A DNA stretch of 64,000 nt, taken from contig NC_023035.1 in NCBI RefSeq assembly GCF_000507245.1, forward strand, positions 1 through 64,000. Reading direction: 5' to 3'. This stretch comes from Salinispira pacifica. GTDB taxonomy: Bacteria; Spirochaetota; Spirochaetia; DSM-27196; Salinispiraceae. The position numbers and the translations under genes are program-made. Shown here in pieces: positions 11,075 to 14,448 of the stretch. The notes beneath the pieces were generated by a model. That model had not been told where the DNA came from and searched no databases. It saw only the letters and a list, made by a program, of their open reading frames with translations. The stretch's first letter is position 1. Each line of letters starts with the position of its first letter.

Positions 11075-12559
11075 ATGAACAATGACCAAAACACACAGCC
11101 CGCTGCCGATCCGGGACATATACCTCTTTTGTGGGAAAACATAGATACCAGCAGGAAAAACCAGTATATCAAACCTGTTGAGAATGAAAGGATGCCGGAA
11201 GCCTTTAAGGCTATGGCCAGGAAAGGTGCAGGGGGAAACACGCCATCCCTCCGTCTTCCCCAACACAACGAACTGTATATTGTCAGGCATTTCACCAGGC
11301 TGGCAGCCTCAAATTTCAGCATAGATTCAAACATGTATCCCCTGGGTTCCTGTACCATGAAATACAACCCCAGGGTGAACGATGCAGTTGCCTCTGCTGC
11401 AGGCTTTGCCTCAGTGCATCCTGCGGATGCCGAAAAAGCCCAGGGAAGCATGGAAGTGCTGTTTAATCTTCAACACCAGCTTGCCCAGCTAAGCGGATTT
11501 GATGCGGTTGCCCTCTCCCCTGCAGCTGGAGCTCAGGGTGAACTTACCGGGGTAATGATGATCAGAAAGTATCATGAGTCCCGGGGGGACTTCGGTCGAA
11601 CCACGGTTCTGGTACCTGATACCGCCCACGGGACAAACCCTGCTACGGTGGCCATGTGCGGGATGAATGTACGAACCATTCCAAGCAATGAGGCCGGGCA
11701 GGTGGACCTTGCTGAGCTTGACGGTCTTCTGGATGAAAGCATTGCAGGAATGATGCTTACCAATCCCAATACGCTGGGAATTTTCGAGAAGGATGTTGTG
11801 GAAATCTGCTCCAGAGTTCATAAAGCCGGGGGACTGATGTACGGCGACGGAGCCAATTTTAACGCCATTGCAGGGATAGTCCGTCCTGCCGCCCTGGGAT
11901 TTGATGTGATGCACTTCAACCTTCATAAAACCTTTGGAACCCCCCACGGCGGGGGAGGACCGGGAGCGGGACCGGTGGGCTGCACTTGGGAATTGCAGGA
12001 GTTTTTACCCGGACCTCTTATCCGGAAAGACAAAGACCGATATGCAGCCTATACACCCGGGAAAAGCATCGGAAAGCTGAAAACAGGATTTGGAAATTTC
12101 GGGATTCTTCTGAGGTCCTATGCATATATCACGGGACACGGCATCGACGGTATTACCACCAACAGCGAGATGGCCGTTCTGAAGGCAAACTATCTGCGGA
12201 ATTTGCTGGCAAAATATCTTCCTGCGCACCACGGCACCCCAAGCATGCATGAATTTGTTGCTTCCAATCCGTTGAAGAACGGGGTGAGCACCATGGATAT
12301 TGCGAAAATGCTTCTGGACAGAGGATTTCATGCCCCCACAGTCTACTTCCCCCTTACGGTGAAGGAGGCGTTGATGATTGAACCCACCGAAAGCGAAAGT
12401 TTCGAGGAGATTGAGGCCTTTGCTCAGGCCCTTATGGAAATTCTCGATACAGCGGAAAAGGATCCTGAAGCTGCCCACCGGGCACCGGAAACGACCCGGC
12501 TGGGCCGCCTGGATGAGGTAGCCGCGAACCGCAAACCAGTTCTTCACCACAAACTCTGA
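11075..12559 (+). CDS. gcvPB: Glycine dehydrogenase (decarboxylating) subunit 2
   Basis: C-terminal half of the split P protein, carrying the PLP lysine K285 in HFNLHKTFGTPHGGGG. Length 494 residues. AGGAAG at 11063-11068 precedes the ATG. With subunit 1 it decarboxylates glycine and loads H protein. No lipoamide dehydrogenase (L protein) gene is in this window, so that subunit must be encoded elsewhere. A hairpin follows at 12612. Confidence 0.95.
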   Translation: MNNDQNTQPAADPGHIPLLWENIDTSRKNQYIKPVENERMPEAFKAMARKGAGGNTPSLRLPQHNELYIVRHFTRLAASNFSIDSNMYPLGSCTMKYNPRVNDAVASAAGFASVHPADAEKAQGSMEVLFNLQHQLAQLSGFDAVALSPAAGAQGELTGVMMIRKYHESRGDFGRTTVLVPDTAHGTNPATVAMCGMNVRTIPSNEAGQVDLAELDGLLDESIAGMMLTNPNTLGIFEKDVVEICSRVHKAGGLMYGDGANFNAIAGIVRPAALGFDVMHFNLHKTFGTPHGGGGPGAGPVGCTWELQEFLPGPLIRKDKDRYAAYTPGKSIGKLKTGFGNFGILLRSYAYITGHGIDGITTNSEMAVLKANYLRNLLAKYLPAHHGTPSMHEFVASNPLKNGVSTMDIAKMLLDRGFHAPTVYFPLTVKEALMIEPTESESFEEIEAFAQALMEILDTAEKDPEAAHRAPETTRLGRLDEVAANRKPVLHHKL

Positions 12560-12611: not shown

Positions 12612-12637
12612 CGGGCGGCAGGTTGAACTGCCGCCCG
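12612..12637 (+). terminator. Terminator hairpin after the gcv operon
   Basis: Perfect 10-bp GC-rich stem (12612-12621 with 12628-12637) and 6-nt loop, 53 nt after the gcvPB stop. The trailing T-tract is weak (TCTTGT). Confidence 0.65.
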
Positions 12638-12670: not shown

Positions 12671-12706
12671 AAAAAAAAACGCAGACGGTGTACCAAGCCG
12701 TCTGCG
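12671..12706 (-). terminator. Rho-independent terminator of the putative small RNA
   Basis: Nine perfect base pairs (12680-12688 with 12698-12706), 9-nt loop, then nine consecutive U on the minus strand (12679-12671). It serves no annotated minus-strand gene. Confidence 0.85.
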
Positions 12707-12781
12707 CCATACCAGAAACCACGAAATTGACGAGGATCACAAAGAATCTTGTGTATCCATAGTCACTTTAGGAGACTTACA
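12671..12781 (-). ncRNA. Putative small RNA of about 110 nt
   Basis: A compact unit with its own promoter and a very strong terminator but no open reading frame of credible length. From the predicted start near 12781 the RNA carries UCUCCU (12775-12770) a few nt from its 5' end. Next is an imperfect hairpin (12734-12758), a short linker, and a 9-bp terminator stem (12680-12688 with 12698-12706) followed by U9. The UCUCCU could pair with Shine-Dalgarno sequences. It matches no RNA family I recognise. Confidence 0.6.
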
Positions 12782-12787
12782 AACAAG

Positions 12788-12816
12788 AATATATAATACC
12801 TGAGTCTAAGCGTCAA
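12788..12816 (-). promoter_or_regulatory. Promoter of the putative small RNA
   Basis: Minus strand: TTGACG (12816-12811), 17-bp spacer, TATATT (12793-12788). A perfect TATAAT on the plus strand at 12849-12854 lies just upstream and may fire the other way. Confidence 0.65.
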
Positions 12817-12848
12817 CTATTTTTAAAAAGTTTCTTAAAATCCCCGGG

Positions 12849-13191
12849 TATAATTTCATGTTGTACATGGAATGCTGCGGGTTTCACTTTTGCCTTCCGC
12901 GGTTTTCGCTCAAGCGTGGATGTTAATCCCGGTCGATACTGAATGCCGGCCGGGCATACCAGCCCGAATTAACAACTGGATATGGCAGCCGGAAACAATT
13001 GTCAGTCACCAGAGCCGGACATTACAATTGACAATCCCGGGGAAACTCCATAATTTACCTACCATACGAAAGACGCAGCTCAGCTGAAGAAACACGATAG
13101 ATGACTCAGCCTCGGTGCTTTACGGAACTCCGCCGGAAGGCTGGCATGTAATACAATCTGAGAGAAGTCAATTATCATACAAGGAGCATAC
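12849..13191 (+). other. Structured leader region upstream of lysA
   Basis: About 340 nt with no credible gene. It contains a TATAAT at 12849-12854, a second promoter-like pair TTGACA (13028-13033), 17 bp and TAATTT (13051-13056), and several small hairpins such as CGGGC/GCCCG near 12953-12968 and CAGCCT/AGGCTG near 13110-13143. No lysine riboswitch or T-box signature was recognised. The ribosome binding site AAGGAG lies just before the lysA ATG. Confidence 0.45.
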
Positions 13192-14448
13192 ATGCCCGAA
13201 CGACATATTCCCCTGAACAGGGATGAACTGGAAAACCTGACAGAGAAGTATCCAACTCCGTTTTATCTTTACGATGAAAAGGCAATCAGGAAAAATGCCG
13301 CATATATGAACGAAAGCTTCAAATGGGTTCCCGGCGGATATAAAAACTATTATGCAGTGAAAGCCCTGCCCAATCCTTACGTATTGGAGTTTATCCGCGA
13401 AGAGGGAATGGGTTTTGACTGCAGTTCCAAAGCAGAGCTGCTCCTTGCGGAGAAGCTGGGTGTCCGGGGTGAAGAAATTATGTTCACCTCCAATGATACT
13501 CCCGCGGAAGAGTATCAGAAGGCCATGGATCTGGGTGCCATCATCAATCTGGATGATATTTCCCACATTGATTATCTCAACGAACACTGCGGTATGCCCG
13601 AGCTTATCTGTTTCAGGTATAATCCCGGACCGCTGAAGAAGGGAAATGCCATTATCGGCAAACCCGAGGAAGCAAAGTACGGTCTTACCAGAGATCAGCT
13701 GTTCGAAGCCTATGAACAGGCGAGGTCCCTTGGGGCAAAGCGGTTTGGTCTTCATACCATGGTTGCAAGTAATGAACTGGATCCGGATTACTTCATTGAA
13801 ACTGCCCGTATGCTCTTTGAACTGGTTGTCGAGTTGCGGGAAAAACTGGATATACAGATCGAGTTTGTGAACCTGGGCGGCGGCATCGGCATACCCTACA
13901 ATCCCGGCGAAAACCCTGTGGATCTGGAGAAGGTATCCCGGGGCGTAAAGAAGCACTACGACGAAATTATCGTTCCGGGAAACGCACATCCTCTGAACAT
14001 AGTCACCGAAAACGGTAGGGTGGTTACCGGACCCTACGGGTATCTTGTTACCCGGGTGATCCATGAAAAACACACCTACAAGGATTATGTGGGAACCGAT
14101 GCGAGCATGGCCAATCTCATGCGGCCGGGAATGTACGGGGCACATCATGAAATTACTGTGCCGGGCAAAAACGGTGCTGCTGAAAAAACCTATGATGTTA
14201 CCGGATCTCTCTGTGAAAATAACGATAAATTTGCCATAGACCGAAGACTGCCGGAAATAGAGGTGGGGGACCTCCTGGTAATCCATGATGGCGGAGCTCA
14301 CGGACATTCCATGGGATTCAATTACAACGGAAAACTGCGATGCGCTGAAATTCTTCTCAAGGCCGACGGCAGCACCAGACAGATCAGAAGGGCTGAGAAT
14401 TATGATGACCTGTTTGCAACTCTGGACTTCTCCGGGTTAGAATCATAG
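13192..14448 (+). CDS. lysA: Diaminopimelate decarboxylase (divergent subfamily)
   Basis: PLP enzyme of fold type III that makes L-lysine from meso-diaminopimelate. The 418 residues have the PLP lysine K57 in YYAVKALPNP, the glycine loop NLGGGIGIPY and the dimer-interface cysteine motif in SLCENNDKFA. Two signatures differ from classical LysA: ENGR replaces EPGR, and HTMVAS replaces the HIGSQ-type segment. These are traits of a clostridial/spirochaetal subfamily usually annotated as LysA. A related decarboxylase activity cannot be excluded. AAGGAG precedes the ATG. Confidence 0.85.
   Translation: MPERHIPLNRDELENLTEKYPTPFYLYDEKAIRKNAAYMNESFKWVPGGYKNYYAVKALPNPYVLEFIREEGMGFDCSSKAELLLAEKLGVRGEEIMFTSNDTPAEEYQKAMDLGAIINLDDISHIDYLNEHCGMPELICFRYNPGPLKKGNAIIGKPEEAKYGLTRDQLFEAYEQARSLGAKRFGLHTMVASNELDPDYFIETARMLFELVVELREKLDIQIEFVNLGGGIGIPYNPGENPVDLEKVSRGVKKHYDEIIVPGNAHPLNIVTENGRVVTGPYGYLVTRVIHEKHTYKDYVGTDASMANLMRPGMYGAHHEITVPGKNGAAEKTYDVTGSLCENNDKFAIDRRLPEIEVGDLLVIHDGGAHGHSMGFNYNGKLRCAEILLKADGSTRQIRRAENYDDLFATLDFSGLES

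Follow-up and report, generated by a model that had tools for sequence, protein, structure and literature searches.

Salinispira pacifica L21-RPul-D2 very probably carries a real small RNA gene in the intergenic region between gcvPB and lysA. Its product is predicted to be a regulatory RNA of about 110 nt, previously undescribed and restricted to one lineage. The window analysed here is a stretch of 64,000 nt, positions 1–64,000 of a genome that was assembled as one contig of 3,782,798 bases; the published S. pacifica L21-RPul-D2 genome (CP006939.1) likewise comprises 3,782,798 bases (PMC4511686). All parts of the unit lie on the minus strand, between a convergent gcvPB that ends at 12559 and a divergent lysA that starts at 13192. 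They are as follows:

12788–12816, minus strand: promoter, with the −35 element TTGACG (12816–12811), a 17-nt spacer and the −10 element TATATT (12793–12788) inside GGTATTATATATT
12671–12780, minus strand: predicted small RNA of ~110 nt, its start (about 12782–12780) placed from the position of the −10 element
12761–12777, minus strand: 5′ hairpin P1, AGUC-UCCUAAAGU-GACU, which contains the invariant GUCUCCU, a C-rich segment resembling an anti-Shine-Dalgarno sequence
12734–12758, minus strand: P2 hairpin, GGAU-A-CACAA...UUGUG-AUCC, whose 3′ side overlaps the invariant UGAUCCUC
12709–12724, minus strand: block UCGUGGUUUCUGGUAU, 16 nt, mostly unpaired and identical in all four genomes compared
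12671–12706, minus strand: terminator, with a 9-bp stem, a 9-nt loop CUUGGUACA containing the conserved UGGUACA, and then U9

The initial annotation of this region, which did not give a strand, had described a consensus promoter with 17-bp spacing, a transcribed stretch of roughly 110 nt with two hairpins, and a 9-bp terminator with U9. These elements are borne out in the minus-strand sequence. The promoter reads TTGACG-17-TATATT, folding of the ~110-nt RNA yields the P2 hairpin and the terminator hairpin, and the terminator stem is formed by the arms CGCAGACGG (12706–12698) and CCGUCUGCG (12688–12680), with U9 at 12679–12671. A generic scan overlooked this terminator because its loop limit was 8 nt and the loop here has 9. 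Promoter matches alone occur in the window at chance level (5 found versus 3.5 ± 1.8 expected). The combination of a promoter matching at 10 or more of 12 positions with a strong terminator 50–250 nt further on is found once in the 64 kb, counting both strands, and in none of 60 first-order Markov resamples of the window. Transcription would be expected to run along the minus strand from the RNA’s own sigma-70-type promoter and to end at the intrinsic terminator, as judged from the sequence.

The best evidence for this predicted unit is its conservation in three other genomes. Among 60 relatives searched with blastn, the unit is present only in Spirochaetales bacterium CG_2015-01t_49_51 (G001), a second relative (G002) and Spirochaetaceae bacterium CSSed162cmB_170 (G003). 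Together with S. pacifica (G000), these are the four available family genomes, and each of them contains one strong match. A covariance model (R1) trained on the three relatives, with the S. pacifica copy left out, matches the window copy at 12776–12679 with 61.9 bits. Promoter layout and block spacing are nearly constant across the four genomes; G001 and G002 have TTGAC and the GGTATTATATATT block at corresponding distances, and in G003 the two are slightly varied. Within this phylogenetically narrow set of four sequences, GUCUCCU, UGAUCCUC, UCGUGGUUUCUGGUAU and the UGGUACA of the terminator loop are invariant, and the intervening sequence varies. One stretch of about 20–40 nt inside P2 is kept in the three relatives and lost in S. 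pacifica. Such a loss is what a functionless, decayed remnant might show. However, the promoter, the blocks and the terminator all survive intact and can still be aligned between genera, and the resampled windows never produced such a unit, so that either decay or a chance pairing of promoter and terminator is a very improbable account of the locus.

The same comparison bears on coding capacity. No reading frame is conserved across the four genomes, the frames being broken or shifted, in agreement with the initial annotation, which had found no coding sequence. A frame starting GUG-GAU-UUU is common to G002 and G003 and could be taken to encode a short peptide, either alone or as part of a dual-function RNA. 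That reading is barely credible: in G001 the frame is shifted and broken by stops, in the window the corresponding frame stops after seven codons, and the putative starts are not preceded by a Shine-Dalgarno sequence.

Folding and covariation analyses point to structure at the 3′ end. The RNA folds with z = −2.5 relative to its shuffles, 5 of 200 of which were equally stable. In the alignment of the four genomes, which has four rows and was fitted to the model, so that its counts lean towards structure, 97.6% of cells are paired, and both partners have changed in six of the pairs. Five of the six fall in the nine-pair terminator stem, in which 100% of cells are paired. The covariation score is 0.311, compared with a shuffled mean of 0.166, and none of 500 shuffles scored as high. 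Compensatory changes, which the initial annotation had named as support for the unit, are found in related genomes, almost all of them in the terminator stem. P1 and the outer P2 stem are invariant, and the inner P2 stem differs in length between genomes; since the P1 and outer P2 pairs never vary, covariation neither supports nor contradicts either stem. For the 5′ half, single-sequence minimum-energy folds disagree, including on P1, and RNAalifold favours a competing, long-range interaction between the 5′ part and UCGUGGUUUC, which does not cover the terminator stem. Of the predicted structure, the terminator hairpin is the only element that is firmly established.

The competing pairing and the downstream gene in two relatives could both be read as signs of a cis-acting leader. 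Under this reading the RNA would be an attenuator or riboswitch of a DUF4342 gene, its terminator would decide read-through, and the S. pacifica copy would be an orphan or remnant left after the gene moved. The start of a DUF4342 gene indeed lies 42 nt (G001) or 58 nt (G002) past the RNA terminator on the same strand. A cis-acting leader should always lie upstream of DUF4342, but the two adjoin in G001 and G002 and not in S. pacifica. There, no same-strand gene follows the RNA and the next gene is the convergent gcvPB, which agrees with the earlier statement that the unit has no gene to serve. In S. pacifica the DUF4342 gene sits at G000:2,993,629–2,993,868 and lacks an RNA of this kind upstream, yet the locus between gcvPB and lysA retains the promoter, the core blocks and the terminator. 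In addition, the 57 nt downstream of the RNA in G003 contain no DUF4342 start, no conserved antiterminator was seen, and the alternative pairing leaves the terminator stem free. We consider the leader reading distinctly unlikely. Because the RNA is kept in S. pacifica without an adjoining DUF4342 gene, action in trans is favoured over a mere leader. The gene itself appears to have moved in or out, as it lies between the RNA and gcvPB in the two relatives (L007:5452–5727 and L008:5032–5295) and elsewhere in S. pacifica. The stand-alone small RNA gene that the initial annotation proposed is supported on several counts: promoter, core blocks and terminator are conserved in four of four genomes, the terminator stem shows compensatory changes, no reading frame is shared by all four, and in S. 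pacifica there is no gene to serve.

Searches beyond the family gave strong matches only within it. This held for model R1 in 395 genomes from the class, for model R2 in 393 genomes from the phylum, and for R2 with looser filters in 40 close relatives. Weak matches reached at most 26 bits, and their number is what the E-values would give. Those inspected (L072–L075, L089 and L095–L097) are missing either the terminator or the core block, or fall within sequence that looks coding; weak matches outside the family are best seen as chance, and none is convincing as a relative, although a very diverged one could have escaped these searches. The pattern GTGGTTTCTGGTATNGNGC occurs 18 times in the genomes of 84,980 species, and only two of these matches, both from family members, fit the model. 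In the lysA flanks of 28 other genomes the RNA was not matched. The weak match L089 (14.8 bits) lies in S. pacifica itself, on the reverse strand at G000:628,185–628,286, and carries GGTTTCTGGTACAC just 5′ of a GC-rich hairpin; this short echo of the RNA’s 3′ blocks is probably due to chance.

Comparison with known RNAs likewise gave no assignment. In the covariance search against Rfam 15 that the initial annotation had recommended, no family matched at its gathering score in the window, the unit included, and E-values up to 5 gave nothing credible. The rteR sRNA (RF04181) shows a weak overall likeness in its 3′ hairpin and U tract, but its 20.8 bits fall far short of the 72 required for gathering and its E-value of 1.2 indicates chance. 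For 6S RNA (RF00013), relaxing the cut-off to E ≤ 10 still gave no match in G000, and a match to this family is also absent in 21 genomes. A T-box reading of UGGUACA was dropped, with both an Rfam match and a downstream gene absent.

In its general design, the RNA resembles trans-encoded base-pairing sRNAs. Like them, it has its own promoter, a length of about 100 nt, a structured body and an intrinsic terminator that ends in a long run of U, as well as a C-rich segment complementary to Shine-Dalgarno sequences and an unpaired invariant block. It differs in that Hfq is undetected in S. pacifica and its close relatives: PF17209 found no Hfq in any of 11 genomes including S. pacifica, in a search whose controls were positive in 5 of 14 cases and which a very divergent Hfq could escape. 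An Hfq-assisted mechanism is therefore without support. C-rich-loop sRNAs of Gram-positive bacteria carry motifs of the UCCC/UCCU type, and our drawn model similarly places UCCU at or close to a small hairpin's loop. However, these sRNAs come from a different phylum, the RNA described here has only one clear C-rich hairpin loop, and the likeness is one of motif placement rather than of demonstrated sequence relationship.

We lean towards the view that the RNA is mainly a trans-acting regulator that base-pairs with mRNAs, a mechanism that we infer from its conserved elements. The non-coding RNA would pair through its 5′ GUCUCCU, which is complementary to Shine-Dalgarno sequences, through the unpaired UCGUGGUUUCUGGUAU, or through both. 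The initial annotation had suggested that a 5′ UCUCCU segment could pair with Shine-Dalgarno sequences. Such pairing by GUCUCCU is plausible because the segment is invariant in all four genomes; its exposure is less secure, as it lies partly in the P1 loop of the drawn model but the minimum-energy folds differ over that hairpin. A different function is suggested by the extent of the conservation, since an invariant 16-nt unpaired block and a terminator loop exceed what a short seed needs. The block and the UGGUACA loop might instead bind or sequester a protein, with mRNA pairing secondary. Against this, the RNA matches no known binding motif, the search for 6S RNA came back empty and no Rfam family reached its gathering score; we regard protein binding as the main function as unlikely, though worth keeping in view.

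For base pairing in trans, a search of the S. pacifica genome for the complement of UCGUGGUUUCUGGUAU gave 38 sites with at most three mismatches, compared with 21 for the reversed pattern. Most of the 14 sites inspected are in coding sequence. One site in a 5′-UTR (L088:1490–1545; G000:446,300–446,340) precedes the gene of a 178-aa protein at about 446,336. This site, which was picked from the genome scan, offers 10 contiguous Watson-Crick pairs with the UCGUGGUUUCUGGUAU block and has GGAGAC, complementary to GUCUCC, at the Shine-Dalgarno position. AAACCACGAA and GGAGAC are colinear complements of the RNA’s two conserved blocks, and AAACCACGAA is flanked by the inverted repeats GAGGGGGA and TCCCCCTC. 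The duplex gives p = 0.02–0.04 against shuffles before selection and is no energy outlier, with 3 of 41 background start regions forming stronger ones. The other three genomes of the family contain no orthologue of this gene. The 178-aa protein gene is thus a possible candidate target, to be taken as a lead only. It is tempting to extend base pairing to a family-specific, Hfq-free regulator that would use two conserved sites at once, GUCUCCU to cover the Shine-Dalgarno sequence and UCGUGGUUUC to pair further upstream, and would tie the metabolism of amino acids or one-carbon units to other genes, but we consider this full scheme improbable. With a well-defined promoter, a conserved core and a terminator, the RNA is directly testable. 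To our knowledge, the small RNAs of free-living spirochaetes have hardly been described. If confirmed, a base-pairing RNA in a lineage without detected Hfq would provide a useful case of Hfq-independent regulation.

The neighbouring genes were identified as lysA by TIGR01048, above its cut-off, and as gcvPB by NF003346. The RNA is divergent from lysA in all four family genomes and has gcvPB on its other side in three (S. pacifica, G001 and G002); in G003 the contig stops 57 nt past the RNA, which places the gcvPB side out of view. Among 28 other genomes in which the lysA locus was checked, none has gcvPB within 1.5 kb of lysA. Regulation of lysA in cis was considered and rejected: the transcripts diverge, a TTGACA-like lysA promoter intervenes in the relatives, and in none of the four genomes does the RNA form a better duplex with the start of lysA than with shuffles (p from 0.20 to 0.94). 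The last result likewise lends lysA no support as a target of base pairing in trans. On the plus strand, a strong terminator-like hairpin of 10 pairs, nine of them G-C, follows gcvPB at 12612–12637. It faces the RNA’s terminator, and the converging transcripts would therefore have separate terminators. The distance from the RNA promoter to lysA is ~375 nt in S. pacifica (window 12817–13191), compared with roughly 100–190 nt in the relatives, and TTGTCA-18-TACAAT at 12999–13028 may be a lysA promoter.
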